Origin: Rhodoferax sp.
Lineage (GTDB): Bacteria > Pseudomonadota > Gammaproteobacteria > Burkholderiales > Burkholderiaceae_C
Length of the DNA stretch: 36,669 nucleotides
Direction of reading: 5' to 3'
Assembly (NCBI GenBank): GCA_021738345.1
Contig: JAIPCE010000012.1
Coordinates: forward strand, 1 to 36,669
The notes beneath the pieces were generated by a model. It did not search any database. It saw only the letters and a list, made by a program, of their open reading frames with translations, and was not told the origin of the DNA. The position numbers were made by a program, and so were the translations under genes. Below are positions 7,701 to 23,288 of this stretch, in pieces (the stretch's first letter is position 1; every line of letters begins with the position of its first letter).

Positions 7701-10655
7701 AAGCTGTGGTGTCCACCCGGGGCCTGCACGTTCCCAATGGGCGCTGCGTGCTGTCCCGTGCTTGGCCAGTGACTGCACCAAGGCTCGTACGCGGATGTCA
7801 TGCGCCTGTCTTGCAAGACACTCTGGGACTTTTGGTGCTGCCAGTAGCACGTCAGCAAGTTGGTCGAGGGCGGCATAACCCTCTAGGCTCAGTCCCGATG
7901 TCGGATGTTTGATGAAATCACCAACAACTTGGGATTTATCCGTTAAGGATTGGATGGCTGTGTCTAGCAATTTGGCTGCAGAACCAAGCGCGTCGCTCCA
8001 GCTGGGCGACCACTCTGATTTTCCAATATGGGCAAGCGGATGGCCACTTAAGGGACCAAGGTCTTGCGCCATGGCAGACATACGCCGAGACGTTTCGCGC
8101 AGTCCTTCGAGCTTTTCCGCTGAATGGGCAAATGCATCAGGCCAAGGCATAGAAGATGGCACTTGGCCTGAACACTCTATGCAGGTCCCTATGGCCGAGA
8201 AGACGGTCAAACCGTTGGGGTAGTCCTTGTGTAAGGCAGCTACCAACCCATTCAAGTCCTGTCGCAGTTGCCCCAATCGTTCCGCTTCGCGCGCCCAGTC
8301 GCTGGCGGTGCGCTCGGCTGTGGTATCAAGTGCCCGTCCGAGTTGCTGCAACACTTCGACTTTTCTTGCCTTGGACGAGTGAAGTTCCAGACAGAAAGGA
8401 CCCAAGCCAATGTCATTCAACCTGCGGTGTACTACCTCGAGTGCAGCCATTTTCTCCGACACAAACAATACCGTCTTGCCCTTGGCCAAGTTGTGCGCAA
8501 TCAGGTTGGTGATGGTCTGGCTCTTACCGGTGCCTGGCGGGCCTTCAAGCACCAAATCACGGCCCACGTCTATGGCGCAAATTGCCTTCAGTTGGGAAGA
8601 GTCTGACAGCAATGGTGTCAGGATGTCTTGTGGCGGATGCGTTGCATCGAGTTGGTCGAATTCACCACGATTGCTTTCACGGGCAAAGGCCTCTCCAGGG
8701 TTTTCAATTAAGTGCTTGACGACGCGGTTGGACTTTAGCTGCTCGGTGCGGTCCTGCAGGTCTTTCCACATGAGGTGCTTCTTGAAGGAGAAGATACCTA
8801 GATGGGCCTGTTCGAGAACCTCCCACTTTGCAATCTCACGCACCGCGAGCCGGAAGGACTGAAGGACTTTGGAAACATCAATACCCTTGTCATCGGTCGC
8901 AACAATATCCAGGCCTGCAATGCGCAACTCAAAACTGTTCTTAAGCAGTTGCAAAAGAGTGGGATTGACAATGGCTTCGTCATCGTGCCGGCGCATCCGA
9001 AATCCAGAGCGAACGGATTGGCGCTCAAGAGTTACGGGGACCAGCAGAATGGGGGCCAGGTGTTTTGACTCAGCCTCCTCAGTTTCAGTCCACTCAAGCA
9101 GGCCAACAGCCAGGAAAAGGGTATTCGCACCGCCTTCTTCCAATCCCGTTCGGGCTGCATTGAAGATTGTCAACAGAATGCCGTCCAGCAAATCTTGGTT
9201 GATGTTGGCCAGAAGCTCCTTGTTTGCAAGGGCCTCCAAAGCCATGTCGTCCAGGGCGGTGCGGCCACTCTTGCTTGCATGGACCTTAGCGGAGCGAGGG
9301 TCATTGCCCTCCATGATTGCAGGAAGCGGGCGAATCTTGAACTCGGAGCCATCCGAAAGTGCATCCTCCAGGCCAGTCAGGTTTGGTGCAATGAATTGAA
9401 GCGTTGACTTGGTCGACTTGAAATTCAGGAGTCGATTGCGAAGTGTCAAATCAAGGAGCTTGGACTTCCAGTTTGAGAGCCGCCCTTCTGGTGTGTCGTC
9501 GAAATCGAGCTTGATGGGTGTCAAGAACTCTGGGTCCAAAGTCGGCATTAAAGGCGTGGCTTCGATCGCGCTAGGCGCTTGAGCGTCGTCGGGCGAGAGC
9601 AGCTTTGTCGGGGCTGAACGGGAGGGCAGCGGCTTGATCTGAACTTCACGAGCGCGGTGAATGTCGACTGCGTATCGGAAAGTTTCATTTTCCTGCAGAT
9701 GCTCATTCCCCCGTTCCAGAGCGATGCGCAGCGACATACGACGGGTGTGGTGTTGTGCAACACCGGTCGTCTCGAAGGCCAGAAACTCACCGCTGTCGAC
9801 TCGTTTTCGGACCGCCTGAATATCGTCTTGCAGCGGGTCTGGAAAGCAGGCCGAGTGCAACCACACGCCAACCCAGGCGTGGCCCTCCTTAAAAAGCACC
9901 ACTGGCCGCAATCCAGCCTGTTCAAGACAGGAGCAGAAGAGCATGGTGAGGTCCAAGCAGGTTGCAACCCGACCCTCAAGGATTCGGTCGGGCGTGCGTA
10001 TCTTCTGGCCGTCGGTGCCAAAAGAAGCAGGCGGCTCTGCGTACTGAAGGTTTTCTGCGGAAATCGTGCTGTAGATAGCCGACACTTGCTTCCAAACGAC
10101 ATCCCGGCTTTTTGACTGGTAGCCATTCATCGATAGTTCGTTGTACTGAGACCGGAGCAACTTTGATGACTTGCCGATAAGAACATCAATGGCCGGGTTG
10201 TTGGGCATGCAGAATGCCGCCAGCAGCTCGGGCAATGCCCTGGTCCCAGCCCACTGGTCGTAAGCCAACACTTGGATGGCGTTGGACTTGTTGGCTAGTT
10301 CAATGGAGTCAAGCAGTACGGATACGATGACCGAAGCATTGATTGATTCCTGCAGGTCGGCCAAGTAAGAGTGGTCTGGCCGAAGGTCGATGGGGGAGAT
10401 TTGGCGCGTTTCTCCCGAAGCTAACCGGTCAAAGCGCAACTTCGTAGCTTGCGCAAATCCAGGATTACAGACAACGAGTACCTCAAGTCCCTCAAGCATG
10501 GCATTGCCGTGGTTGGTAAGGCGCAGGGACCTGATCACCGGGACAGAGTTTTGAATAGATGCGTACCCAAGGGTCACATCGGATTCAATTTCTATCGCTA
10601 CGTTCTCTGGAGCAACTTCTGCTGAAGTACTCGCCTTATTGCTCACAATCTCCAT
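4743..10655 (-). CDS. Giant SF1 (Upf1-like) helicase with DUF4011-type N-terminus, Vsr-like nuclease segment and DUF3320-type C-terminus
   Basis: This 1970-residue protein carries superfamily 1 helicase motifs: Walker A GPPGTGKS near residue 708, DEAS Walker B near 1350, VVGDPKQLPP (motif III) near 1378, NVQGDERDVI (motif V) and RRLNVAISRARE (motif VI) near 1587. The roughly 640 residues between Walker A and B are a large insertion. An N-terminal transglutaminase-like stretch (ATCLDLTMLFCSCLEQAGL) is near residue 235. Downstream of the helicase, GIECDGRTYHSG near residue 1693 with RDRLRQHVLEGLGWRIHRIWSTDWW resembles the Vsr/MTES_1575-type endonuclease fold. The C-terminal part (about 1810-1890) resembles DUF3320. 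Such proteins are frequent in defence islands, and this one abuts BREX. It is probably a separate anti-invader nuclease-helicase, but no function has been shown here. The ATG start has an AAGGGG sequence about 9 nt upstream. Confidence 0.88.
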   Translation of the reverse strand: MEIVSNKASTSAEVAPENVAIEIESDVTLGYASIQNSVPVIRSLRLTNHGNAMLEGLEVLVVCNPGFAQATKLRFDRLASGETRQISPIDLRPDHSYLADLQESINASVIVSVLLDSIELANKSNAIQVLAYDQWAGTRALPELLAAFCMPNNPAIDVLIGKSSKLLRSQYNELSMNGYQSKSRDVVWKQVSAIYSTISAENLQYAEPPASFGTDGQKIRTPDRILEGRVATCLDLTMLFCSCLEQAGLRPVVLFKEGHAWVGVWLHSACFPDPLQDDIQAVRKRVDSGEFLAFETTGVAQHHTRRMSLRIALERGNEHLQENETFRYAVDIHRAREVQIKPLPSRSAPTKLLSPDDAQAPSAIEATPLMPTLDPEFLTPIKLDFDDTPEGRLSNWKSKLLDLTLRNRLLNFKSTKSTLQFIAPNLTGLEDALSDGSEFKIRPLPAIMEGNDPRSAKVHASKSGRTALDDMALEALANKELLANINQDLLDGILLTIFNAARTGLEEGGANTLFLAVGLLEWTETEEAESKHLAPILLVPVTLERQSVRSGFRMRRHDDEAIVNPTLLQLLKNSFELRIAGLDIVATDDKGIDVSKVLQSFRLAVREIAKWEVLEQAHLGIFSFKKHLMWKDLQDRTEQLKSNRVVKHLIENPGEAFARESNRGEFDQLDATHPPQDILTPLLSDSSQLKAICAIDVGRDLVLEGPPGTGKSQTITNLIAHNLAKGKTVLFVSEKMAALEVVHRRLNDIGLGPFCLELHSSKARKVEVLQQLGRALDTTAERTASDWAREAERLGQLRQDLNGLVAALHKDYPNGLTVFSAIGTCIECSGQVPSSMPWPDAFAHSAEKLEGLRETSRRMSAMAQDLGPLSGHPLAHIGKSEWSPSWSDALGSAAKLLDTAIQSLTDKSQVVGDFIKHPTSGLSLEGYAALDQLADVLLAAPKVPECLARQAHDIRVRALVQSLAKHGTARSAHWERAGPGWTPQLAKLNAADLKAQWAQAKLAWWPKSWFAKRAVFGRLLAFRTDGLRPTAQQTESMIDALADVNDEDQVLVSMHAEAQALLQGAYDGIQTDWSALTAHALWAQKFSDAVTQVAGTDPRVISALRLSLQALVTENRAHLATSGSVGRALLAYRDAWREVRQKNDVLDALAQPGQPLSGPPGADGALARIQGVLIGWNLAKQKLRAWCLWRNVRDKALSQGLQGLVSSLEAGAVELPDLEAHFNFSYCDWWLKKVLDIDPILREFSSADHARKIREFRQADTKFQKLTEKYIVATLSGRIPTATGAMVGADSELGRLRRELQKQRKHMPVRQLVQGLPTLLPKLKPCLLMSPLSVAQYLDAGYAPFDLVVFDEASQIPVWDAVGAIARGKQLAVVGDPKQLPPTNFFGKSTDSDGAGDEQVEDLESILDECLGAGMNRLSLQWHYRSRHESLITFSNVRYYDSCLVTFPSPVTDDVAVKFERVNGVYDRGATRTNRIEAEAIVKGIETHYLTPAKAHLTIGVVTFNQPQQALIETLLDARRRTNLELDRAIAARSHEPLFIKNLENVQGDERDVIFFSITFGPDATGKTSMNFGPLNGEGGHRRLNVAISRAREAVVIYSSLMPEQIELAKVRAAGVRDLKHYLEFAIKGPHALVEQRMPTGSAPDSPFETAVIELLRSHNWEVHPQVGCSGYRIDIGVVDPRARGRYLVGIECDGRTYHSGATARDRDRLRQHVLEGLGWRIHRIWSTDWWLNPEGEVKKILERLQAFMQDGERTADEATVEVVQNEEPESAPHPPAPEERQLAVEAMPIFGPVTLSSRGANAFYAFSSGALLAEQLAQVIEVEGPLSEAVLFRKVFRAWGLERTGSRIVERLKALLPTAASKTYENSTTFYWPKSVQPASLSHFRIADHTAASKRHIDEVCLEEISAIVLQVLHQAGSAPRQDVARSVCRLVGMSSATAPAVARVGLAIQGLRDTLRIVETDGNIRLSA

Positions 10656-12367: not shown

Positions 12368-13003
12368 ATGACGCAACCCAAACGCCCCAAACTTGCGACC
12401 GAAGTGCGGCAGGCCAGCCTGATGGAGGCGGCGTTGCGGCTGGCAGCGCGCCATAGCCCTATGCACATCACCACCGCGGATCTGGCACGTGAGGTGGGTC
12501 TGACGCAGGGGGCGGTTTTTCGGCACTTTGCCAGCAAGGAGTCGATCTGGACTGCGGTCATGGATTGGACGACCGCGCAACTGATGGCACAGTTGCGTGC
12601 TGCGGCCGATTCGGCTTCGCCCGCTGGCAGCGGTGCCCAACCGCTAGCGGCGCTGCGGGCGGTGTTTCTTGCCCATGTGGCGTTTGTGGTGGAGTATCCG
12701 GGCGTGCCACGCGTCATCTTTCAGGAACTGCAACATGCCGAGGACTCGGCCTTACGCGCCAAAGTGCGCGGCCTGATGCAGCAGTACCGCGCGTTGCTCG
12801 CCGAGCTGCTGGCCCAGGCCCAGGCGCAACAGCTGCTGCAACCCGGCACCGATTTGCAGGCCGCAGCGGTGCTGCTGATTGGTTCCGTGCAAGGGCTGGT
12901 GATGCAGTCCATGCTGGGCGGCCGGGTGGACACCTTGGCTGAACAAGCGCCAGGTGTCATCTCTATTTATCTGCGTGGACTGACTGCAAAGGATCCCACT
13001 TGA
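12368..13003 (+). CDS. TetR/AcrR family transcriptional regulator
   Basis: A 211-residue protein with a TetR N-terminal helix-turn-helix at residues about 15-60 (EAALRLAARHSPMHITTADLAREVGLTQGAVFRHFASKESIW) and a helical ligand-binding C-terminal domain. Members normally repress efflux genes and release DNA on binding a small molecule. It is first in a four-gene plus-strand operon and overlaps the adaptor gene by 4 nt. A perfect 20-bp palindrome over the promoter is the obvious operator. No strong Shine-Dalgarno precedes the ATG, so a near-leaderless transcript is possible. Confidence 0.93.
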   Translation: MTQPKRPKLATEVRQASLMEAALRLAARHSPMHITTADLAREVGLTQGAVFRHFASKESIWTAVMDWTTAQLMAQLRAAADSASPAGSGAQPLAALRAVFLAHVAFVVEYPGVPRVIFQELQHAEDSALRAKVRGLMQQYRALLAELLAQAQAQQLLQPGTDLQAAAVLLIGSVQGLVMQSMLGGRVDTLAEQAPGVISIYLRGLTAKDPT

Positions 13004-14217
13004 AACCCCGTTTCATCACCGTTCGTCGCCTGGGCCTCGGTGCCCTGGTCTTGCTCGTTTTGGCAGCACTGGCGTTTGTTTTGACCCGCACCGGTCCGCT
13101 GGCCGCGACCCGCGTCACCGTTCAGACGGTCAAGGAGGCAAGCCTCACGCCCGCCATCTTCGGCATTGGCACGGTCGAGGCCCGGCGCAGCTGGATGCTC
13201 GGGCCGACGGTCGCCGGGCGGGTGCTCAGCGTCAAGGTCGACGTGGGCGACAGGGTCAGGGCCGGGCAACTGCTGGCTGAAATAGACCCGGTCGATCTCG
13301 ACCAGCGGCTTGCCGCGCTGGATGCCGCACTAGAGCGCGCCCGCAACGGGCAACGCGCTGCGCAAGCCCAGGTAGCGGACGCGAACGTACGGCGCGAGTT
13401 GGCCAGCCTCAATGCCAAACGCAACCAAGACCTGGCCGCACAAAACTTTATCAGCGCGGGCGCACTGGAGTCGCGCCTGCAAGAAAAAGCCTCGGCCGAG
13501 GCCGCGCTCCAGTCGGCACAAGCCAATCTTGACGCCAGCGGCTCCGACCTGGACCGACAAAGGGCCGAACGTGCGGCGCTGCAACAACAGCGTGCCAACC
13601 TGCGCCTGCTGGCCCCGGCGGACGCCGTGGTATCGAGCCGCGATGCCGAGGCCGGTTCCACCGTCGTTGCAGGTGCGCCGGTGCTGCGGCTGATAGACCC
13701 CAATAGCCTTTGGATCAAGCTGCGCGTAGACCAAGGTCGGTCTGCAGGTCTAAAAACTGGGCTCCAAGCCAAAATCAGCTTACGCTCACAACCCGGCGTG
13801 GAGCGCTCCGGGCTTGTGGCACGGGTCGAGTTGCTGGCCGACAGCGTCACCGAAGAACGTCTTGCCCAGGTGGCATTTGACAGTTCACCCAGCGGCGCAG
13901 ACCCTGGCGCCTCGGTTGGCGAGCTTGCTGAGGTCGAGCTGCAATTGCCGCCCACACCCGTGCTGCCGGTGTTGCCCAATGCCAGCATTTCGCGCTTGCA
14001 GGGCCAGACCGGGGTCTGGCGCATAGAAAACGAGCAGCCCGTATTTGTGCCGGTACGGCTCGGTGACGGCAGCCTGAACGGCCTGGTGCAGGTCGTCGAG
14101 GGGGTCAAGGCCGGCGACCGGGTGGTGGTCTACAGCCACAAAGCTCTGGTGCCGGGTGCCCGCATTCAGATTGTGGATGCGCTGGTAAAGCCTGCGGCCC
14201 AGGGCAATACGCCATGA
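13000..14217 (+). CDS. HlyD/MacA-type periplasmic adaptor of an efflux system
   Basis: A 405-residue membrane-fusion protein that links an inner-membrane transporter to the outer membrane. One N-terminal membrane helix (residues about 9-28) anchors it. The first lipoyl half (AGRVLSVKVDVGDRVRAGQLLAEID) is at about 72-96, an alanine/glutamine-rich coiled-coil hairpin at about 98-200, the second lipoyl half at about 200-233, then a beta-barrel and membrane-proximal domain. The start is TTG at 13000, overlapping the tetR stop as TTGA; no later start keeps the membrane helix. It also overlaps the permease start as ATGA, so tetR, adaptor and permease are translationally coupled. No outer-membrane channel gene is in the window. 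Confidence 0.9.
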   Translation: MKPRFITVRRLGLGALVLLVLAALAFVLTRTGPLAATRVTVQTVKEASLTPAIFGIGTVEARRSWMLGPTVAGRVLSVKVDVGDRVRAGQLLAEIDPVDLDQRLAALDAALERARNGQRAAQAQVADANVRRELASLNAKRNQDLAAQNFISAGALESRLQEKASAEAALQSAQANLDASGSDLDRQRAERAALQQQRANLRLLAPADAVVSSRDAEAGSTVVAGAPVLRLIDPNSLWIKLRVDQGRSAGLKTGLQAKISLRSQPGVERSGLVARVELLADSVTEERLAQVAFDSSPSGADPGASVGELAEVELQLPPTPVLPVLPNASISRLQGQTGVWRIENEQPVFVPVRLGDGSLNGLVQVVEGVKAGDRVVVYSHKALVPGARIQIVDALVKPAAQGNTP

Positions 14218-15407
14218 TCAGCCTGGCCGGGCGCGATATTGCCCATAGCTGGAGCAAATTCTTGCTCACCGGCATCGGCCTCGGCCTGTTGATTGGCGTC
14301 ACGTTGACCATGGCCGGGGTCTACCGTGGCATGGTCGACGATGCCCACGCACTGCTCAACAACAGTGGTGCCGACCTCTGGGTGGTACAAAAAGACACGC
14401 AGGGCCCCTACGCAGAGGCGTCCAGTCTCAAGGACGATGTGGTGCGCAGCATTCGGGGTATGCCAGGTGTGGCCCAGGCCAGCAATGTGACCTACTTCAC
14501 CATGCAAGTCCAAAAGCACGACGGCAGCGATACCCGCGCCATGGTGGTCGGCAGCGAACCCGGCCCCGGCAGTGCGCCCGGGTATTTGCTGGCCGGACGG
14601 CACCTGACGCGCGGCCACTTTGAAGCAGTAGCCGATATCAAGACTGGCTTTGAACTAGGCGAACGCATACAAATCCGCCGCCACAGTTACACCGTGGTGG
14701 GCCTGACCCAGCGCATGGTGTCGTCCGGCGGCGACCCCATGGTGTTTATTGCACTCAAAGACGCGCAAGAAGCCCAGTTCCTTAAAGACAACGACGCGAT
14801 TTTGAACGACCGCACCCGCACGGCCGCCAGCCCTGCCTTCAACCGCCCGGGTGTGCCTGGTCTGCTGGAGGCAGTGCAGTCGCTGCAAAGCAGCAGCCAC
14901 AATGTCAACGCCGTGCTGGTGCAACTGGCACCTGGTTTTGATCCCGAGCAGGTGGCGCAGCCGATCCGGCGCTGGAAGCACCTGGGCGTCTTCACCCGCG
15001 AGGGCATGGAAGACATTTTGGTGGCCAAGCTGATTGCTACCTCGGCCAAACAAATCGGCATGTTTCTGGCCATACTGGCAGTGGTCAGTGCGGCGATTGT
15101 GGCCTTCATCATCTACACCATGACGCTGGGAAAAATTCGCGAAATTGCGGTGCTCAAACTCATAGGCACACACAATCTCACGATTGCCAGCATGATCCTG
15201 CAGCAGGCGCTCGGGCTCGGTCTGATAGGCTTTGTGGTGGGCAAAGTGGCAGCTACCCTGTGGGCACCGGTGTTTCCCAAGTTTGTTCTGCTGCTGACCC
15301 AGGACGCGCTGCTGGGACTGGTCGCCACCCTGTTGATTTGTGCACTGGCCAGCACGCTCGCAATCCGTGCGGCGCTCCAGGTCGACCCGGCGACCGCCAT
15401 TGGCTAG
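14214..15407 (+). CDS. ABC transporter permease, FtsX/MacB/DevC type
   Basis: A 397-residue protein with the FtsX-like topology: one N-terminal membrane helix (about 17-38), a large periplasmic domain (about 45-275) containing GADLWVVQKD, and three C-terminal helices (about 283-306, 327-350, 365-388). With the adaptor and the ATPase it forms a tripartite efflux pump of the MacAB/DevBCA kind, using ATP-driven conformational change in the periplasm. The start ATG overlaps the adaptor stop. The substrate cannot be told from sequence. Confidence 0.9.
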   Translation: MISLAGRDIAHSWSKFLLTGIGLGLLIGVTLTMAGVYRGMVDDAHALLNNSGADLWVVQKDTQGPYAEASSLKDDVVRSIRGMPGVAQASNVTYFTMQVQKHDGSDTRAMVVGSEPGPGSAPGYLLAGRHLTRGHFEAVADIKTGFELGERIQIRRHSYTVVGLTQRMVSSGGDPMVFIALKDAQEAQFLKDNDAILNDRTRTAASPAFNRPGVPGLLEAVQSLQSSSHNVNAVLVQLAPGFDPEQVAQPIRRWKHLGVFTREGMEDILVAKLIATSAKQIGMFLAILAVVSAAIVAFIIYTMTLGKIREIAVLKLIGTHNLTIASMILQQALGLGLIGFVVGKVAATLWAPVFPKFVLLLTQDALLGLVATLLICALASTLAIRAALQVDPATAIG

Positions 15408-15417
15408 CCCGACTGTG

Positions 15418-16164
15418 ATGCAACACCCAACCCCACCCCAGAGCCGCGCACCCGGCCAAGCCGGCGGTATTCACATCGAAGGCCTGCGCAAGGTCTACGG
15501 CCATGGCGACACGGCAGTAGAAGCGCTCAAGAACGTCAATTTGCAGGTGGCACCGGGCGAAGTGGTGGGGTTAGTAGGGCCGTCGGGTTCGGGCAAGAGT
15601 ACCTTGCTCAAGTGCCTGGGCGCCATCATCGAGCCCACCTCGGGCCGCATGACCCTGGGTCAGGATATCATTTATGAGGACGGCTGGAAAGTGTCCGACC
15701 TGCGCACCCTGCGGCGTGACCGCATTGGCTTTGTGTTTCAGGCGCCGTACCTGATTCCTTTTCTGGATGTTACCGACAACGTGGCCCTGCTTCCCATGCT
15801 GGCAGGCCGGCCCAACGCACAGGCGCGGGCCAAGGCGCTGGAGCTGCTTAAAGCGCTGGACGTGGCCCACCGCGCCCAGGCCCAGCCCTCGCAGCTTTCG
15901 GGCGGCGAGCAGCAGCGCGTCTCGATTGCCCGGGCGCTGGCCAACAACCCACCGGTCATTTTGGCCGACGAGCCGACCGCGCCACTCGACAGCGAGCGCG
16001 CGCTAGGCGTCATGCGCATCCTCAACCAGATGGCCCAACATGCCCAAACCGCCATTATTGTGGTCACCCACGACGAAAAAATCATCCCCACGTTCAAACG
16101 GATTTACCATATTCGCGATGGTGAAACGGTAGAGGAAGTTGGACTGGGCAGACACCTATCCTGA
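15418..16164 (+). CDS. ABC transporter ATP-binding protein (LolD/MacB-like)
   Basis: A 248-residue nucleotide-binding subunit for the upstream permease. Walker A GPSGSGKST is at residues 54-62, the Q-loop at FVFQAPYL, signature LSGGEQQ at 160-166, Walker B VILADEPT at 180-187 and the H-loop in VVTHDEK. The D-loop reads PLDSE rather than the common SLD/ALD. I chose ATG 15418 (or the adjacent GTG 15415), which follows the permease stop by about 10 nt. An in-frame GTG at 15340 would add a run of residues that overlaps the permease and does not look like a real N-terminus. Confidence 0.92.
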   Translation: MQHPTPPQSRAPGQAGGIHIEGLRKVYGHGDTAVEALKNVNLQVAPGEVVGLVGPSGSGKSTLLKCLGAIIEPTSGRMTLGQDIIYEDGWKVSDLRTLRRDRIGFVFQAPYLIPFLDVTDNVALLPMLAGRPNAQARAKALELLKALDVAHRAQAQPSQLSGGEQQRVSIARALANNPPVILADEPTAPLDSERALGVMRILNQMAQHAQTAIIVVTHDEKIIPTFKRIYHIRDGETVEEVGLGRHLS

Positions 16165-16197: not shown

Positions 16198-16560
16198 ATG
16201 ACCAAGCGCGCACCCACCAGGACCATTGGCCCCATCACCGAGCCCGACCGCATGTTTGAAATGGCGGCGGAGCTGTTCAGCGTCTTGTCGGCCCCCATGC
16301 GACTGCGGATCATCCGCAGCGTCTGCGATGCCGAGAAGAATGTCACCGAGTTGCTCAGTGAAATCAAGACCACCCAACCCAATATGTCGCAACACCTCAA
16401 CACCTTGTACAAGGCAGGTGTTTTAGGCAAGCGGCGCGAGGGTGTGCAGATTTATTACCGCGTGATTGACCCCCGCGTGACGGACCTGTGCCATGCAGTG
16501 TGCGCCCACGTGACGGACGACCAGACGGCGAAGCTGCGGGCTGTAGAGTTATCAGTCTAA
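16198..16560 (+). CDS. ArsR/SmtB family regulator (first of two paralogues)
   Basis: A 120-residue winged-helix repressor with the recognition region NVTELLSEIKTTQPNMSQHLNTLYKAGVLGKRREGVQIYY at about 48-87. Cysteines are at 43, 98 and 102; the residue at 43 falls in SVCDAEKNV and is conserved in the paralogue at 22983-23288 (SLCESEKNV). ArsR proteins of this kind sense metals, metalloids or reactive sulfur through cysteines; which applies here cannot be decided. A good ribosome binding site, AGGA, lies 8-9 nt before the ATG. It sits 33 nt after the ABC ATPase gene and about 150 nt before the octaheme cytochrome, so it may control either neighbour. Confidence 0.9.
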   Translation: MTKRAPTRTIGPITEPDRMFEMAAELFSVLSAPMRLRIIRSVCDAEKNVTELLSEIKTTQPNMSQHLNTLYKAGVLGKRREGVQIYYRVIDPRVTDLCHAVCAHVTDDQTAKLRAVELSV

Positions 16561-16592
16561 AGAAGTCATATTTATCCGAATATCAGCAAGCA

Positions 16593-16634
16593 CTGATTTA
16601 AATCAATGCGGGTTTCTACCTAGAAGACCACAAT
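16593..16634 (+). promoter_or_regulatory. FNR/Anr-type box and putative promoter of the octaheme cytochrome operon
   Basis: CTGATTTAAATCAA at 16593-16606 matches the FNR consensus TTGAT-N4-ATCAA at 9 of 10 defined positions and contains the perfect palindrome TGATTTAAATCA. A CACAAT hexamer at 16629-16634 (4 of 6 matches to TATAAT) is where a -10 should be if the box is centred at -41.5 (class II activation), with a start site near 16641. The cytochrome ATG is 71 nt further on. This predicts anaerobic induction. Confidence 0.7.
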
Positions 16635-16711
16635 GCCTTTACCACGTTCGAGCCCGGTCTAGCTTAGTCATCTGACAGCGCAGCGCCAGGCTCTTTTACA
16701 GAGGTAAGGCA

Positions 16712-18307
16712 ATGCGAATTTCATTTTTCAAGGCGATGCTGTTGGCGGCTGTCATGGTCACCACGGCGCACGCGGCCACTCCCACGGCAGCGGTCACGCT
16801 CGCCAAATCCACCGCAGACCACAGCAAGTTCAAGGAACTCAATCGGCCCTTTGACTCGGGTCCCGAGGTCACCAAGGCCTGCTTGGGCTGCCATACCGAA
16901 GCGGCCAAGCAAATCCACCAGACCCAGCACTGGACCTGGGAGTACGCCAACCCCCAGACCAAGCAGGTGCTGGGCAAGAAGCATGTGGTGAACAACTTCT
17001 GTACTTCGGTCAAGTCCAACGAGGCGGCCTGCAACAGCTGCCACATTGGCTACGGCTGGAAGGACGCCAGCTTTGACTTCACCTCAGAGGTCAATGTCGA
17101 CTGCCTGGCCTGCCACGATGCGACCGGCCGCTACAAAAAGCCCTCGGGCTTTGCTGGGCACCCGGTCACCAAGGACACCGAGTTTCCTGCGGGCTCGGGC
17201 AAGATCGTCAAGGGCATCAACCTGACCGAGATTGCGCAAAAGGTCGGACCCACCAAGCGCACCAACTGTGGTTCGTGCCACTTCTACGGCGGTGGTGGCG
17301 ATGCCGTCAAGCACGGCGACCTCGACAGTTCGCTGGAAGCACCCAACAAAGAGCTCGATGTGCACATGGACGTGGACGGCAACAACTTCAGTTGCGCAAC
17401 CTGCCACAAGACCGATGGCCACCAAGTGCCCGGCAGCCGCTACGCCCCCACCGCCAAGGACAAAGACCCGGCCCACCTGCGGGGCAAGGCCGAAACCACA
17501 AACCCTGCGACTTGCCAGGCCTGCCATGGCCAGGCACCGCACCAGCAAGCCAAGATCAACGACCACACCAACAAGCTGGCCTGCCAGACCTGCCACATCC
17601 CGGCCTATGCACGCGGTGGCCAACCCACCAAGATGACCTGGGACTGGTCCACCGCCGGACGCCGTGACAAGGACGGCAAGCCCATCACCGAAAAAGATGA
17701 CGACGGCTACGACACCTATCTGTCAACCAAGGGCAATTTCACCTGGAAAGAAAACGTGGTGCCCGAATACATCTGGTTCAACGGCACGGTCAAGTACACC
17801 CTGATGGGCGACAAGATCGAGAAGGGCGACAAGCCCACCAAGATCAACGCCTTTGAAGGCAGCGCCACCGACGGCAAGTCGATGATCTGGCCGATCAAGA
17901 TGTTCCGTGGCAAACAGGTCTATGACCCAGTCAACAAGTCCCTGGTGATTACCCACCTGGCTGGCAATGACGACACCGCCTTCTGGAAAAACCTGAACTG
18001 GGACAAGGCCGTGGCTGCTGGCATGGCCAAGACAGATGTGGCCTTCTCGGGCAAGCTGGACTTTATTGAGACCGAGAGCGCCTGGCCCATCACCCACATG
18101 GTGGCTCCCAAGGAAAAGGCCGTGGGCTGTGTTGAGTGCCACACCAGCAATGGCCGCCTGGAGAAGATTGATGGCGTGTACCTGCCCGGTCGCGGCAGTG
18201 ACCACCCCAGGTGGCTCGAACTGGGTGGCTGGGCGCTGGTGCTGCTGACCCTGGTCGGTGTGACCGGCCACGGCCTGATTCGTCTCGTATCCAACAAACG
18301 CAAATAG
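16712..18307 (+). CDS. Octaheme c-type cytochrome, tetrathionate reductase (OTR) family
   Basis: A secreted multiheme cytochrome of 531 residues. The signal peptide (residues 1-21, ending TTAHA) is followed by eight CxxCH haem-attachment sites starting at C57, C107, C131, C186, C228, C268, C291 and C473, the count and grouping of the OTR family described from Shewanella. OTR reduces tetrathionate, and also nitrite and hydroxylamine, in vitro. A hydrophobic segment near the C-terminus (about 505-526, GGWALVLLTLVGVTGHGLIRL) followed by NKRK should anchor it on the periplasmic face of the inner membrane. It is first in a plus-strand operon with cytochrome b 19 nt downstream, behind an FNR-type box. 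The true substrate in this organism is unknown. Confidence 0.93.
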   Translation: MRISFFKAMLLAAVMVTTAHAATPTAAVTLAKSTADHSKFKELNRPFDSGPEVTKACLGCHTEAAKQIHQTQHWTWEYANPQTKQVLGKKHVVNNFCTSVKSNEAACNSCHIGYGWKDASFDFTSEVNVDCLACHDATGRYKKPSGFAGHPVTKDTEFPAGSGKIVKGINLTEIAQKVGPTKRTNCGSCHFYGGGGDAVKHGDLDSSLEAPNKELDVHMDVDGNNFSCATCHKTDGHQVPGSRYAPTAKDKDPAHLRGKAETTNPATCQACHGQAPHQQAKINDHTNKLACQTCHIPAYARGGQPTKMTWDWSTAGRRDKDGKPITEKDDDGYDTYLSTKGNFTWKENVVPEYIWFNGTVKYTLMGDKIEKGDKPTKINAFEGSATDGKSMIWPIKMFRGKQVYDPVNKSLVITHLAGNDDTAFWKNLNWDKAVAAGMAKTDVAFSGKLDFIETESAWPITHMVAPKEKAVGCVECHTSNGRLEKIDGVYLPGRGSDHPRWLELGGWALVLLTLVGVTGHGLIRLVSNKRK

Positions 18308-18326
18308 TCTGATCGGAGAAATAACC

Positions 18327-18932
18327 ATGTCACGCGTCTACCTGTTCAAACCCTTTGAGCGTTTCTGGCACTGGTCGCAAGCGGCCCTGATCATCACCAT
18401 GCTGGTCACCGGCTTTGAGGTGCATGGCACGTACAGCCTGCTGGGCTTCGCGAAAGCCGTCAACACCCATACGATTGCCGCTTGGACCCTGGTGGGCCTG
18501 TGGATCTTTGCGATCTTCTGGCACTTTGCCACCGGTGAGTGGCGCCACTACATTCCCACCACCGACAAGATCGTGGCGATTGCCAACTACTACTCCTCGG
18601 GCATTTTCAAGGGCGAGGCCCATCCGTTCAAGCCCAGCAGTGTCAACAAGCACAACCCGCTGCAGCGCCTGACCTATCTGGCAGTACTCACCCTGCTGAG
18701 CCCGCTGATCTGGGTGACCGGGGGGCTGTATCTGTTCTACGCGAGCTGGGGTGCACTGGGCCTGGACTGGCTCAAACTCGAAAGGGTGGCAGCCGGCCAC
18801 ACGCTGGGTGCCTTCCTGATGCTGGCTTTCCTGATTTCGCACCTGTACCTGGCCACCACCGGCCACAAGATTCACTCCCAGGTCATGGCAATGATCACCG
18901 GCTGGGAAGACCTCGGACATGAAGCCAAGTAG
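18327..18932 (+). CDS. Cytochrome b (b561/HydC/PhsC-like membrane subunit)
   Basis: A 201-residue integral membrane cytochrome with four helices (about 14-32, 47-69, 115-138, 156-177). Histidines at 15, 48, 66, 158 and 172 lie in or next to the helices and can provide bis-His haem ligation, as in hydrogenase and thiosulfate-reductase cytochrome b subunits. It is placed directly after the octaheme cytochrome with a GGAGAAATAACC ribosome binding site, so it most likely oxidises quinol and hands electrons to that protein. The porin gene follows after about 43 nt. Confidence 0.9.
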   Translation: MSRVYLFKPFERFWHWSQAALIITMLVTGFEVHGTYSLLGFAKAVNTHTIAAWTLVGLWIFAIFWHFATGEWRHYIPTTDKIVAIANYYSSGIFKGEAHPFKPSSVNKHNPLQRLTYLAVLTLLSPLIWVTGGLYLFYASWGALGLDWLKLERVAAGHTLGAFLMLAFLISHLYLATTGHKIHSQVMAMITGWEDLGHEAK

Positions 18933-18975
18933 CTTTCGCGTCCGAATCACACATTTACCAAGTAAGGAGTACTCC

Positions 18976-20784
18976 ATGGACACCCGTTTCAAGAAAAACA
19001 TGCTCGCAGCCCTGGTGGCGGGCATACTGATGCCTGTTGCCGCCCAGGCAGCTGAGGCCGATTTGCTCAAGCGTATTGATGCCATGGCCAAGGAAATCGA
19101 ACTGCTCAAGGCCCAGGTCAAGGCCGATCGCGAAGTCGCTGCCAAGGCGCAGGCACCTGCGCCCAAGGCCGATGTCGCGGCCATCGACGAACTCAAGAGC
19201 CAAGTCAAGAAGCTCGAAGACAAGTCTCTGAGCAAATGGCTGACGGTAGGCGGTGACTACCATTTCCGCCTGGATTCGCTCAAAGGTGAAACCCGGACCT
19301 TTACCGATGTCAACGCCACCTTCAACAAGGCCGCCCAGGCACTGCAGGGCGACTTTTTTGGCAACCCGTCCACTACGCCGGGTTCGTCGAGTTATTTTGG
19401 CGCACCGCAAGCTGGCGGCATGTCCACTGCCGGTGCGCTGTCGGCGCTGATGGCTTTCCAGCCGGCAATGAATGGCGTGGCAAGCTTCGACCAGGCGCTC
19501 GCCTTTTTGGGCAGCCCGACGGGGCAATTAGCCAAGGGGCTGGGTAGCTTTGCCGCCACCGTGCCGGCCTACAAGCCTGAAAACAGCAGCCTGATGAGTA
19601 ACCGCTTTGGTCTCGACCTCAACGCCAAGGCGACCCAGGATGTCAGCGTGACGGCCCACTTGCAGATGTACAAGGTATGGGGCGCACAAAACGAAAGCGC
19701 CCTCACCAACGGTGCCTCGGCCCCCTACTTTGCCGACCGGGTGGGCGTGTTTGATGGCACGCTGAGCCGGGTCCCTTCCACCAGTTACCTCAATGTGGAC
19801 CGCGTCTACGCCACCTGGAGCAATATCGCCGACCAGGAAATGTGGTTTTCGGTCGGGCGGCGTCCCTCCACGGGCGGTGCCCCCAGCAACCTCAAGAACA
19901 ACAATCCACGCCCCGGCAATGGTGGCACCCCGTCGCTATTGGTTGACTATGCCTTCGATGGCATGACGCTGGGCTATGCGCCCGAGATCGATGCCCTGCC
20001 CGGTGCCTATGCCAAGCTTTGTTATGGCCGTGGCTTTGACAGTGGCTACAGCAACCCCACCAACTCGCTGTCGGATACCGACATGTTTGGTGTCTCGATT
20101 ATCCCGATCGATACCGACCCCCTGCGCGTCTGGTTGCAGTGGAACCGTGGCATGAACATCTTTGATGCGCCAACCATGAACAACACCTATTTTGGCAACA
20201 CGGCAGCGCGTACCAATCTGGGCGACATTGACTGGTATGGCTTGGGCTTCATGAGCACCTTCAAGAAGGTCGGACCGGGCAATTTGCATGTCTTTGGTGA
20301 CTGGGGTATGAGCGTCACCCACCCCAACAACAATGTGTCGGCACAGTTTGGCTTCCAGGGTCTGATGACCGGCGGCTTCTTTAACCCCGAAGCACCCACC
20401 AGCAAGACCGGCACCGCCGTCGCACTCGGGCTGCGCTACGACCTGCCCTCTAAGACCATGTTTGGCCTGGAGTACAACCACGGCTCCAAAGACTGGATCA
20501 CCTTTGCCCCGGCAGCCGACGACATGTGGACCTCCAAGGTCGGCGCGCGCGGCGATGTGGTTGAAGCCTATGTCATCCAGGAACTCGATCGCATGCCGAT
20601 TTCCTCGTACTTCAGCAAGGCCTTCTTCCGTCTGGGCTTCCAGCGCTATGACCTCAAATACACCGGTTCCAACAACTGGGTCGGTGCGCCGGTTGCCATC
20701 TCCGATGTCAATGGCCAGATGATGACCATGACCCCGCTGGAGAGCGCCACCAATATTTATGCGACGTTCGACGTCAAATTCTGA
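18976..20784 (+). CDS. DUF3373 / ExtI-like outer-membrane porin
   Basis: A 602-residue predicted outer-membrane beta-barrel. The signal peptide covers residues 1 to about 25 (ending AAQAA). A coiled coil (LLKRIDAMAKEIELLKAQVK onward to KKLEDK) at about 27-85 is of the periplasmic kind seen before some porin barrels. The remaining ~500 residues alternate like beta strands and end in a terminal phenylalanine (YATFDVKF), as outer-membrane proteins do. I recall DUF3373 proteins being named ExtI in Geobacter clusters linked to selenite/tellurite reduction; that match is from memory. The start at 18976 has AAGGAG 6 nt upstream; an in-frame upstream ATG at 18919 would spoil the signal peptide. Confidence 0.82.
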   Translation: MDTRFKKNMLAALVAGILMPVAAQAAEADLLKRIDAMAKEIELLKAQVKADREVAAKAQAPAPKADVAAIDELKSQVKKLEDKSLSKWLTVGGDYHFRLDSLKGETRTFTDVNATFNKAAQALQGDFFGNPSTTPGSSSYFGAPQAGGMSTAGALSALMAFQPAMNGVASFDQALAFLGSPTGQLAKGLGSFAATVPAYKPENSSLMSNRFGLDLNAKATQDVSVTAHLQMYKVWGAQNESALTNGASAPYFADRVGVFDGTLSRVPSTSYLNVDRVYATWSNIADQEMWFSVGRRPSTGGAPSNLKNNNPRPGNGGTPSLLVDYAFDGMTLGYAPEIDALPGAYAKLCYGRGFDSGYSNPTNSLSDTDMFGVSIIPIDTDPLRVWLQWNRGMNIFDAPTMNNTYFGNTAARTNLGDIDWYGLGFMSTFKKVGPGNLHVFGDWGMSVTHPNNNVSAQFGFQGLMTGGFFNPEAPTSKTGTAVALGLRYDLPSKTMFGLEYNHGSKDWITFAPAADDMWTSKVGARGDVVEAYVIQELDRMPISSYFSKAFFRLGFQRYDLKYTGSNNWVGAPVAISDVNGQMMTMTPLESATNIYATFDVKF

Positions 20785-20817
20785 TTGTCTATTTTCATTT
20801 TTTATTAGGAGCACACC

Positions 20818-21138
20818 ATGAAATCCAAAATTTCCTCACTCATTCTGGCCGCTGTTTTGGGCTTGTCAGGCGCAACCTTCTCCGCCAGCGCGTTCGCTGA
20901 CGAAGGCAAGATGGTCGGACCGGTCACCAAGATCACGCTGGCTGCCGACGGTAAGTCCGCCACGGCCATCATGAAGGATGCCAAGTCAGGTGAGTCCACT
21001 ACGCTCACGGTCACCGACGCGCTGACCCTCGACAAGTTCAAAGACAAACGCATTGTCGAAGGTGACGAAATCCGCGCCCGCTGGGAAAAAGACGGCAAGA
21101 ACACCAGCAAGTCGTTCAAGAAAACTGCCGGCTGCTAG
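20818..21138 (+). CDS. Small periplasmic protein, ExtJ-like
   Basis: A 106-residue secreted protein. The signal peptide is about 1-27 (ending SASAFA). The mature part is small, charged and beta-rich (VGPVTKITLAADGKSATAIM, then LTVTDALTLDKF) and ends KSFKKTAGC with a single terminal cysteine. I believe it corresponds to the small ExtJ proteins that follow ExtI porins in selenite/tellurite-associated clusters, judged by position and general pattern rather than a search. AGGAG at 20807-20811 gives good spacing to the ATG. It lies 33 nt after the porin and is surely in the same transcript. Confidence 0.75.
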   Translation: MKSKISSLILAAVLGLSGATFSASAFADEGKMVGPVTKITLAADGKSATAIMKDAKSGESTTLTVTDALTLDKFKDKRIVEGDEIRARWEKDGKNTSKSFKKTAGC

Positions 21139-21144
21139 AGCGCC

Positions 21145-21174
21145 TTTCACAACCGTTCACACCGGTTCACACCA
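21145..21174. repeat. Three 10-bp tandem repeats (TTTCACAACC / GTTCACACCG / GTTCACACCA)
   Basis: Three successive 10-bp units share TTCACA and a CC pair near the end. They start 6 nt after the ExtJ-like stop and sit in a 119-nt intergenic gap inside an otherwise compact operon. A GGGGC...GCCCC stem follows at about 21183-21206. One helical-turn spacing would suit side-by-side protein binding, or the region may shape mRNA stability; neither is shown. Confidence 0.55.
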
Positions 21175-21257
21175 AGCACTCCTGGGGCGCTGTCTCCTGG
21201 CCCCGGGGTGTTGCAAGTTTCAGGGAGACAACTATCCCTTGATTTAGGAGTTTCGTG

Positions 21258-22319
21258 ATGAAACGCATTGTTTTAGCAGTCGCCCTGGCACTCGCAGGCA
21301 TAACGTCCACCACCGTCTGGAACGTCAACGCGGCAGAAGTGAAAATGGAAGCCGATGAGATCGCCAACGAGCAAATGGTCTCGTTCTACGAGAAGGGCTT
21401 GATCGGCAAGAGCGTCTGGGTAGTCGACAGCCGGCCAGCCGGCAAATTTATCACCGGGCACATTCCCGGGTCCGTGAGCCTGCCACTCGACGTACTCATG
21501 AAAGACCCGAGCAGCGCAGACAAAGTGGGTGCGCCCAAAAATGGCAAAGTGATCTTCTATTGCGCCGGCCGCGAGTGCACCTTGTCTGTTGATTCTGCGG
21601 CAATTTTCAGAAAAATGGGTTACTCCGATGCCTGGGTCTACCGCAACGGCGTACCGGGCTGGAACCAGAAAGCCCAGCCGCTGCTCGCAACCGATGCCTA
21701 CCTGAAGAAAGGCAACCTGATTCTGCTCGACACCTCAGCGGGTAAGGAAACCATCGTTTCTTCGAGCAACAAAACCGTCCAGATCTCCATGGACGAGCTC
21801 AAGGGTGCCAAGGGCAAGAGCGTGCTGGCCGATTTGTCCAAAAACGCGCCGCTGGTCGTGATTGGTCGTGGCGACATGGAAGCCGTCAATGCCACGCTGG
21901 AAGAGCTGCGCGAGCTCGATTTCCGCCGTCTCGCATACTTTCCACTGGCCGCCTGGAAAGAGGCCCTGGGCACTGCGCCTGCAGCCACTGCCGTGACCTG
22001 GGCGCCGGTGTATGCGCCGGGCCAGGTATCGCCCAAAGCCTTTGAAGAGGCTGTGGCCGCAGGCAAGTTCATTCTTGATGTGCGTCCCGCGGCAGACTAT
22101 GCGAGGGGTCACTTCAAGGGTGCGATGAGCCTGCCGATTGAAGAGATGGAAAAGGACTTTGCAAAAATACCCAAGGACGTTCCGGTCTTTGTGAACTGCG
22201 CAACCGGTGCCAAGAGCCAGAAAACCTACGACATCCTGGGCCGCAAGGGCTACACCAACATTGCCTTCCTGGATGCCGAGATTTCCTGCAAGGGCGAAGC
22301 CTGCACCATCAAGGAATGA
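21258..22319 (+). CDS. Secreted triple-rhodanese protein, ExtH-like
   Basis: A 353-residue exported sulfurtransferase-like protein with a signal peptide (1 to about 26, ending NVNAA). Three rhodanese modules are visible. Module 1 (about 35-140) has the active loop FYCAGREC with C102. Module 2 (about 150-238) has VVIGRGDM where the catalytic cysteine loop should be, so it is degenerate. Module 3 (about 255-345) has VNCATGAKS with C314. Two further cysteines (344, 349) near the C-terminus could bind metal or form a disulfide. Rhodaneses move sulfane sulfur or bind selenium/tellurium oxyanion products. Position after the porin and ExtJ-like gene supports the ExtH label. The ATG at 21258 with AGGAG 7 nt upstream is preferred to the adjoining GTG. 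Confidence 0.85.
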   Translation: MKRIVLAVALALAGITSTTVWNVNAAEVKMEADEIANEQMVSFYEKGLIGKSVWVVDSRPAGKFITGHIPGSVSLPLDVLMKDPSSADKVGAPKNGKVIFYCAGRECTLSVDSAAIFRKMGYSDAWVYRNGVPGWNQKAQPLLATDAYLKKGNLILLDTSAGKETIVSSSNKTVQISMDELKGAKGKSVLADLSKNAPLVVIGRGDMEAVNATLEELRELDFRRLAYFPLAAWKEALGTAPAATAVTWAPVYAPGQVSPKAFEEAVAAGKFILDVRPAADYARGHFKGAMSLPIEEMEKDFAKIPKDVPVFVNCATGAKSQKTYDILGRKGYTNIAFLDAEISCKGEACTIKE

Positions 22320-22328
22320 GCGTTTCCC

Positions 22329-22961
22329 ATGGCCATGGCACCGCACTCTAGAGCAACCTGGCGAACGGCTGCCGTGGCATGCAAGCCGGTCCTTGTCCTC
22401 CTGACCTGGATCGCCTTGCTGGCACCAGGCCAGGCAGCCGAGCCCGAGCTCTTGCGCATGATCGGACAGAGCAAGCAGTTCATTGTGCAGACCCCGTCTG
22501 GCCCTTTCACCATCACGCGCAACAAGACCGCTTGTGCCTTCAACAAGGGCGCGTTGCAACCGCTGGTTCCCCTGCCGGGGGTGCAGCCCGTCACCGAAAT
22601 CGAGGTTCTGCATGCGCTCAACGATCCGGCGACCATGGTGATTGACATGCGCGACGAAGAAGACCCGCTGGACGCTACCATCCCCAACAGCTACCACATT
22701 CCCTACAACGAGATCGAAGACCGCATGGGCGAGGTGGGGTGCGTGTCGATTGGCAAAAACCAGTGGGACTGCGCCCAGGCCGCGCGCATTGTGGCCTTTT
22801 GCTACGGCCCCATGTGTCTGCAAAGCCCCGCCGGCATCACCAACCTGGTACGCATGGGTTTTCCGGTGGGCAAAATTGCCTACTACCGGGGCGGCCTGAT
22901 GGACTGGGAAGCGCTGGGGCTGACCACGGTCCGGGGCAGCCGACCGACCCTCCGGAAATAG
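22329..22961 (+). CDS. Secreted single-domain rhodanese-like protein
   Basis: A 210-residue protein. The N-terminus is hydrophobic (residues about 19-37, ending APGQAA), consistent with export, after an unusually long charged stretch, so the second ATG (22335) could be the real start. The rhodanese fold spans about 85-200: the VIDMRDEED entry, the HIPYNEI strand, the active loop FCYGPMC with C158 and C163, then YYRGGLMDWEALGL. The CxxxxC pair in the loop and extra cysteines (69, 138, 148) suggest a redox-active site. It follows the triple rhodanese by 9 nt and belongs to the same operon. It is a different subfamily from its neighbour, not a duplicate. Confidence 0.87.
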   Translation: MAMAPHSRATWRTAAVACKPVLVLLTWIALLAPGQAAEPELLRMIGQSKQFIVQTPSGPFTITRNKTACAFNKGALQPLVPLPGVQPVTEIEVLHALNDPATMVIDMRDEEDPLDATIPNSYHIPYNEIEDRMGEVGCVSIGKNQWDCAQAARIVAFCYGPMCLQSPAGITNLVRMGFPVGKIAYYRGGLMDWEALGLTTVRGSRPTLRK

Positions 22962-22982
22962 AACACACGGGGTGTAAACACC

Positions 22983-23288
22983 ATGCCAGCCGCGGCAAAA
23001 CAGCAATTGATCAGGCAATGTGAGCTCAGCGCCTTGCTGTTTGGCGTGCTGTCTGCACCACTTCGGCTTCAGATCATCAGCAGCTTGTGCGAATCCGAGA
23101 AAAACGTCAGCGAACTATTGTCAGAGATCAACACCACCCAACCCAATATGTCCAACCACCTCAAGACCCTGTACCAAGCAGGTCTTCTGGGCAAACGCCG
23201 CAAGGGCGTTCAAATGTATTACTACTTGGCCAACCCGCACCTGCGCGAGGATCTCTTTCAAATCTCCAGGTGGGTTCCATCGGCCTGA
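22983..23288 (+). CDS. ArsR/SmtB family regulator (second paralogue)
   Basis: A 101-residue winged-helix protein clearly paralogous to the one at 16198-16560: both share LFxVLSAPxRLxII, the EKNVxELLSEI segment, TTQPNMSxHLxTLYxAGxLGKRRxGVQxYY. Cysteines are at 13 and 36; C36 matches C43 of the first copy, while the C-terminal cysteines of the first copy are missing. It closes the redox operon 21 nt after the second rhodanese, and a GGTGT-AA-ACACC inverted repeat lies directly before its ATG. Likely an autoregulator of the operon or part of a two-repressor switch. Confidence 0.9.
   Translation: MPAAAKQQLIRQCELSALLFGVLSAPLRLQIISSLCESEKNVSELLSEINTTQPNMSNHLKTLYQAGLLGKRRKGVQMYYYLANPHLREDLFQISRWVPSA

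Follow-up and report, generated by a model that had tools for sequence, protein, structure and literature searches.

Gene content of the cluster

The stretch of DNA analysed here (hereafter the window) spans one contig (36,669 bases) of a Rhodoferax sp. draft genome that totals 4.87 Mb in 346 contigs, and eight genes lie on its plus strand between positions 16198 and 23288, i.e., arsR, an octaheme cytochrome of the OTR family, a cytochrome b, a DUF3373 barrel, a secreted protein of 106 residues, two rhodaneses and a second arsR. Such a cluster had been claimed in a sequence-only reading, and all eight genes were recovered in this stretch with their families as named by profile searches. The OTR-family cytochrome (16712..18307, plus strand, as are all cluster features given below; 531 residues) has eight CxxCH motifs and, by eye, a C-terminal hydrophobic helix. 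It matches the whole of model TIGR04315 (positions 1-440; 646 bits, cut-off 375) and resembles Shewanella oneidensis OTR (1sp3) with a phmmer E-value of 1.2e-116. The cytochrome b that follows it (18327..18932; PF01292, 81 bits) is presumed to be the quinol-oxidising subunit and is PhsC-like, its best NCBIfam match being the PhsC model NF011582 (113 bits, below the cut-off of 204).

Cysteine or predicted selenocysteine at the catalytic heme

Alignment to 1sp3 places Cys97 of the window protein (TGT, 17000..17002), 10 residues before the heme-II motif, at the position of S. oneidensis Cys64, and Lys200 (17309..17311) at that of Lys153, which is reportedly the lysine ligand of catalytic heme II. 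Together with an equivalent of Asp150, the family (TIGR04315) and the eight hemes, these residues are shared by the two proteins. Heme II is described as the catalytic heme of OTR (PMC4484225; here and below, statements on cited articles refer to their accessible parts).

A survey of 345 genomes from the phylum of Geomonas oryzae (G765) gave 60 with OTR over the cut-off, and among their 70 matches, all of which were read, 25 (spread over 24 genomes) contain a single in-frame TGA. From 154 OTR matches altogether, 138, including Proteobacteria relatives, were aligned first; 16 were left out (14 low-scoring octahemes of a second family, the partial L076 and the over-long L035), and 14 further rows over the cut-off were added later, giving 152 rows in total. 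The Cys64 column of the first 138 rows holds 113 cysteines and the 25 TGA codons (93 TGC, 20 TGT, 25 TGA) and is the sole mostly-Cys non-heme column, other TGAs being found only close to row ends. With the added rows (13 Cys and one Thr, in L281) the column amounts to 126 Cys, 25 TGA and 1 Thr, while the Lys153 column is lysine in 152/152 rows (14/14 of those added) and the Asp150 column of the first alignment reads D 125, E 6, N 6 and L 1. Judged by sequence, OTR carries Cys or predicted selenocysteine (Sec) at the catalytic heme in all but one of the 152 rows. Three survey matches below the cut-off also have a stop codon (TGA in G929 and G1043, TAG in G819) and stand outside these tallies. 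L281 and L271-L280 are OTR-family proteins with 12-13 CxxCH motifs in an open frame, and Thr occupies the Cys64 site in L281 alone.

The 25 TGA-bearing octahemes (L211-L230 and L251-L255, all of the Geomonas phylum) have hairpins that resemble a selenocysteine insertion sequence (SECIS). When the 53 nucleotides (nt) from the TGA were folded against dinucleotide shuffles, the mean z was -1.6 over the 25 rows, with one row above 0, as compared to 0.09 for the equivalent nucleotides of that phylum's Cys rows (3/33 at or below -1.5) and 0.12 in Cys rows elsewhere (4/80); the corresponding p values are 1e-6 and 4e-9, for rows that are related. A stem like CTGGTGC-AGGT-GCACCAG (loop AGGT or AGTT) occurs in 22/25 TGA rows and CAACGAG-GCT-CGTTG in the remaining three, the stems beginning 17-21 nt from the T of TGA. 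On the basis of 25/25 codons in one column and these SECIS-like hairpins, we predict that the relatives' TGA codons encode Sec. The occurrence of tRNA-Sec is compatible with this prediction and does not discriminate, as scores of at least 59 bits were reached in 22/24 TGA genomes, yet also in 33/36 genomes without TGA. It was rejected as a discriminating test, being present in nearly all 60 genomes in a noisy search where 14/14 controls gave a signal, five of them over the cut-off. A quick maximum-likelihood tree that excluded the Cys64 site, and that has several long branches, requires four changes between Cys and Sec, each of them dictated by branches with good support.

That Cys and Sec replace one another at this site, four times on the tree, speaks for sulfur chemistry and marks a single residue as the target for mutation. 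Within the phylum surveyed, the predicted Sec-OTRs would be candidate selenoenzymes based on heme. In vitro, OTR was described as acting on tetrathionate, nitrite and hydroxylamine, and to our knowledge its natural role has not been settled since. A protein of the same family stated to be a Sec-containing OTR has been listed once, as the GenBank-annotated WP_331457571.1 (TIGR04315), with its motif column left blank (PMC13188914). In the accessible open-licence PMC literature, Sec at the heme-II site of OTR amounts to this single table row, with no site, SECIS, distribution or mechanism given there.

Pairing of OTR with cytochrome b

The chain from quinol to cytochrome b to a membrane-anchored OTR, which the sequence-only reading had drawn as a respiratory unit, is supported by how often the two genes are paired: cytochrome b lies within 6 kb of 22/25 Sec-OTRs, 16/30 Cys-OTRs of the Geomonas phylum and 25/28 other OTRs of the family (in these and the other 6-kb neighbour counts below, some contigs are short). 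The Shewanella enzyme is reportedly soluble, whereas the window OTR, with its C-terminal hydrophobic helix, adjoins a cytochrome b in an operon that adds a porin, a small protein and rhodaneses. Electrons reach Shewanella OTR from CymA via STC (PMC4484225). An OTR with an adjoining cytochrome b was proposed earlier to form a membrane-linked tetrathionate reductase in Thermosulfurimonas dismutans (TDIS_1882/1883); the accessible text mentions neither porin nor rhodanese and does not discuss an active-site Cys or Sec (PMC4911364). OTR as a respiratory reductase is known, and what is new is the barrel, the thiol-ended OB-fold protein and the rhodaneses alongside it.

Conservation and distribution of the gene set

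A collection that covers 84,980 species was scanned for the barrel and yielded 243 relatives, of which the best 80 were fetched with their loci; the tallies therefore lean to close relatives. Within 6.5 kb of the barrel in these 80 loci we found the small protein in 77, OTR in 56, cytochrome b in 55, rhodanese in 38, ArsR in 27, a second octaheme in 13 and a PhsA/PsrA-like molybdoenzyme in five, i.e., the neighbourhood of OTR, DUF3373 and rhodanese, for which conserved synteny had been suggested as a check, does recur. In the three loci without a small protein, the sequence stops at the barrel. OTR, cytochrome b and the small protein occur together in 50/80 loci and are joined by a rhodanese in 29/80. 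When only the 50 loci with at least 3 kb on both sides are considered, the small protein is found in 50/50 and a rhodanese in 23/50, and all but L110 and L125 (48/50) have at least one of OTR, the second octaheme and a polysulfide-reductase-like molybdoenzyme within 6.5 kb.

By record title the carriers include Rhodoferax, Ramlibacter, Zoogloea, Propionivibrio, other Betaproteobacteria and Geobacterales, with Zoogloea ramigera NBRC 15342 and Propionivibrio dicarboxylicus DSM 5885 as cultured examples (loci L120 and L132), and the gene set is not limited to the window's organism. We did not recognise a description of it among the papers that searches of the open-licence PMC literature brought up. 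Genome G121 keeps the order OTR, cytochrome b, porin, small protein, rhodanese, rhodanese, and G317 keeps all genes from cytochrome b onward, its contig stopping where OTR should start. Three genomes of another family, f117, keep the barrel and the small protein, and OTR was not found in the 19.5 kb read there. Adjoining the G121 copy are ArsA-, ArsC- and ACR3-like genes (L032:270-3654, by eye).

The second octaheme-type family (L152:12249-13634 and relatives) comprises proteins of ca. 455-463 residues with 7-8 CxxCH motifs and, by eye, a conserved MCN[GA]ND motif; its matches to TIGR04315 (149 and 155 bits) are below the cut-off. At L140, L142 and L145 it is clustered with the barrel, the small protein, a rhodanese and a PsrA-like molybdoenzyme.

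DUF3373 is rare, being present in 3/399 genomes of the window's family (its own, G121 and G317), where OTR occurs in 27/399, and in 4/369 genomes of the class, its own included and the three others belonging to f117. Given this rarity, the presence of OTR within 6.5 kb in 56 of the 80 closest barrel relatives is not a matter of chance. Only one of the five sampled genomes of the genus, the window's own, has OTR or DUF3373; the set is thus accessory in its own genus and plausibly mobile.

Barrel, small protein and rhodaneses

The DUF3373 outer-membrane barrel with its N-terminal helix (18976..20784, in a frame open from 18919) matches PF11853 with 497 bits (cut-off 26.1). Its AlphaFold2 model (predicted local distance difference test, pLDDT, 69.9) has ca. 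16 strands, the N-terminal helix and a helical insert, and the best Foldseek matches among the 50 listed are general porins of the BpsOmp38, PorB and Omp32 type (E 4e-10; template modelling, TM, score 0.30-0.36 by query length and 0.5-0.6 by target length). MtrB is not among these 50, and an MtrB-type conduit finds no clear support in a model of ca. 16 strands with general-porin matches. Near OTRs, DUF3373 was seen within 6 kb of 0/25 Sec-OTRs, 8/30 Cys-OTRs of the Geomonas phylum and 0/28 others. A family of unknown function hereby gains a testable role, i.e., that of a porin of sulfur respiration.

The small secreted protein (20818..21138, 106 residues) has a signal-like N-terminus, a predicted oligonucleotide/oligosaccharide-binding (OB) fold, no Pfam match and Cys as its last residue (KTAGC-COOH). 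The ending K[TA]AGC is found in 74/74 complete copies, leaving out L075 and L124, where no stop codon occurs within the contig, and a terminal Cys in 0/312 other homologues of the same loci; the three f117 copies likewise end in GC. The model (pLDDT 76) is a five-stranded OB-like barrel. These features suggest a periplasmic thiol carrier, and hence a candidate for a new kind of sulfur carrier in the periplasm. One locus contains two thiol-ended copies (L090:4454-4771 and 5424-5741).

Downstream lie two secreted rhodaneses. The first (21255..22319; PF00581 in two significant stretches) had been read as a three-module protein; it does belong to the rhodanese family, but only two modules bear a candidate active-site Cys (C103 and C315), with a Cys-less middle and no Cys between residues 108 and 315. 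The second (22329..22961; PF00581, 28 bits) is a single-domain protein with the motif CYGPMC.

Several other genes found near OTR or the barrel are of a sulfur type as well. A second layout in the family, seen in full in L033, consists of OTR, cytochrome b, a monoheme cytochrome c, a YeeE/YedE sulphur transporter and a rhodanese; L036 has a similar transporter (by eye), and a rhodanese was found in L034, L036 and L037 as well. The order in L249 (3713-9285) is a distant DUF3373, a DsrE-like protein (a marginal match, 23.4 bits against a cut-off of 22.7), a monoheme cytochrome c, OTR and cytochrome b, and genes resembling dsrMKJOP (by eye) adjoin the barrel and small protein in L070 of f117. Of the PsrA/PhsA-type molybdoenzymes, those of L140, L142 and L145 are accompanied by the second octaheme and those of L117 and L149 are not; for the L117 enzyme, the one that was compared, the closest solved chain is the polysulfide reductase 2vpw (675 bits, versus 128 for ArrA). 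As far as gene families can tell, the neighbours favour sulfur over selenium or tellurium. A comparable association is known from Dethiobacter, whose clusters encode an octaheme cytochrome with rhodaneses and where the octaheme DealDRAFT_1917 is up on thiosulfate; identity to Otr/SirA is only 20-23%, and a porin is not mentioned in the accessible text (PMC10376724).

Regulation

Between the first arsR and OTR, upstream of OTR, lies an FNR/ANR-type box, CTGATTTAAATCAA (16593..16606), with one mismatch to TTGATNNNNATCAA. Searching for TTGATNNNNATCAA with at most one mismatch at 120-520 nt before the first heme motif (rows with <350 nt upstream left out), we found a box in 29/46 barrel-linked OTRs versus 0.5 expected from shuffles that preserve single-base content only; the box-bearing sequences are related and so do not count as 29 independent events. 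The box is positioned 276-296 nt ahead of the first heme motif in 25 of these, and the other OTR groups have it in 5/28, 1/24 and 1/32 cases. The gene set is probably oxygen-regulated.

Both ends of the cluster carry ArsR/SmtB-family regulators. The first (16198..16560; Cys 43, 98 and 102) matches HTH_metalloreg (75 bits, cut-off 55) and HTH_5 (41 bits), and the second (22983..23288) was assigned by profile searches. Identity with BigR was rejected (NF040642, 57 and 49 bits, cut-off 155), as was identity with TsoR, also below cut-off. An ArsR gene is found within 6 kb of 13/25 Sec-OTRs and 2/28 other OTRs of the family.

A proposed periplasmic reduction of sulfur compounds and its alternatives

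We consider, with moderate confidence, that the cluster encodes a respiratory reductase of the periplasm that depends on quinol, is induced under anaerobic conditions and acts on an S-S-bonded oxyanion or chain (tetrathionate, thiosulfate or polysulfide). The set is likely to let freshwater bacteria respire a sulfur compound in the periplasm. In such a scheme, FNR would turn the operon on without oxygen, the ArsR proteins would respond to sulfur species, the DUF3373 porin would admit the anion, and the membrane-anchored OTR would receive electrons from quinol via cytochrome b. A thiolate at heme II (a selenolate in other bacteria) could attack the S-S bond and hold an S-substituted intermediate, which the lysine-ligated heme would reduce much as in TsdA, and the small OB-fold protein, via its C-terminal Cys, together with the rhodaneses would carry away sulfane sulfur. 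TsdA, like OTR, has an active-site Cys at a heme, with a Cys-S-thiosulfonate intermediate, and differs in being a diheme protein of another family whose Cys is a heme ligand (PMC5146829).

A wider reading, which we regard as possible rather than probable, is that OTR octahemes in general would be thiol/selenol enzymes with the Cys/Sec by heme II as the true nucleophile; because this residue would be catalytic, their natural substrates would be S-S (or S-Se) compounds. The relay in Betaproteobacteria and Geobacterales of a DUF3373 anion porin, an OB-fold chalcogen carrier with a C-terminal Cys and rhodaneses would then be a previously undescribed module, swapped between OTR, the second octaheme and PsrA-type molybdoenzymes.

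Several observations weigh against these proposals. The Cys site holds Thr in L281, a 13-heme OTR-family fusion over the model cut-off, and only 11/25 hairpin regions, from related rows, reach a z of -1.5 or below. Matches to the fold of the small protein, which include CcmE, are weak, with a best E of 0.004. The handling of sulfane sulfur by rhodaneses, as envisaged in the sequence-only reading, fits the 23 well-flanked loci that have one but not the 27/50 that have none within 6.5 kb, and near OTRs a rhodanese was seen within 6 kb of 0/25 Sec-OTRs, 2/30 Cys-OTRs of the Geomonas phylum and 5/28 others; being missing from those 27 loci and near all 25 Sec-OTRs, it is not obligatory. ArsR is absent near 53/80 barrels and near 30/30 Cys-OTRs of the Geomonas phylum, and was not found in the 19.5 kb read in G121. 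The L117 molybdoenzyme falls below the PhsA cut-off (493 versus 694 bits), and PsrA-like enzymes include selenite reductases. Finally, nitrite and hydroxylamine are reduced by S. oneidensis OTR in vitro as well (PMC4484225).

Selenite/tellurite respiration or detoxification is an unlikely alternative in which OTR would reduce Se or Te oxyanions admitted by the barrel, while the rhodaneses and the small protein would bind Se(0) or selenosulfide, as proposed for the Geobacter ext genes. Mutating extI impairs selenite/tellurite reduction in Geobacter (PMC5877670), the extHIJKL cluster likewise combines a rhodanese, an outer-membrane barrel, a protein of ca. 105 residues and a multiheme cytochrome (PMC5877670, PMC6148476), ArsR regulators are present in the window, and the small protein resembles the two ExtJ proteins examined in size and in its C-terminal GC, the only features shared. 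However, the barrel and small protein, which had been taken for an ExtI/ExtJ-like pair, both fail the ExtI and ExtJ models: the barrel has no match to NF040900 (cut-off 150) and the small protein none to NF040942 (cut-off 52.5) at E<=0.01, with hhalign probabilities of 0.7% and 11%, respectively, whereas the positive controls from the ext cluster of Citrifermentans bremense score 718 bits (ExtI) and 80.5 bits (ExtJ). Authentic ExtI is Porin_O_P in Pfam and NF040900, not DUF3373, and ExtKL, a pentaheme selenoprotein, belongs to another family than OTR. Its model NF040886 is not among the matches of the window OTR, the rest of the window's genome not having been searched for it; ExtKL is over the cut-off in 2/12 searched genomes (Geomonas oryzae and C. 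bremense), with an in-frame TGA there, and lies on a different contig from the single DUF3373 gene in both. The ext genes of G765 and G766 are in this way separated from DUF3373. Two Geobacterales loci with porin, small protein and cytochrome were also tried as ext clusters and are not such, their octaheme of 455-463 residues being of the second family. Since both proteins fail the Ext models, the link to selenite and tellurite, to which the sequence-only reading had tied the cluster, loses its main basis, and the neighbours are mostly of a sulfur type; what remains of the ext resemblance is an analogy.

More improbable still is that OTR serves as an ammonifying or nitrosative-stress enzyme for nitrite or hydroxylamine. 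We know of no need for Cys or Sec in NrfA-type heme chemistry, and the neighbours are rhodanese, DsrE-, YedE- and PsrA-like proteins, to be set against the in vitro activity of the S. oneidensis enzyme (PMC4484225). We hold it very improbable that the cluster forms a porin-cytochrome conduit delivering electrons to Fe(III) or another acceptor outside the cell: a multiheme cytochrome does adjoin an outer-membrane barrel, and many relatives are Rhodoferax and Geobacterales, but the predicted barrel of ca. 16 strands matches general porins with no MtrB among the 50 matches listed (and even these with low TM scores by query), the window cluster has no outer-surface cytochrome, and its OTR has a C-terminal hydrophobic helix and is paired with cytochrome b.

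Other genes of the window

Directly upstream of the cluster (12368-16164) are genes for a TetR regulator, a MacA/HlyD-like adaptor, an FtsX/MacB-like permease and an ATPase. This exporter is near the cluster in 10/80 barrel loci, as well as in G121 and partly in G317, and a distant version lies upstream of the Sec-OTR in L226; it is possibly a functional partner of the cluster. The left end of the contig (47-4474) carries PglZ and BrxL genes (959 and 1144 bits) of a bacteriophage exclusion (BREX)-type defence island, adjoined on the minus strand (4743-10655) by a helicase-like protein of 1970 residues that matches the PADLOC candidate PDC-S37 (1332 bits).

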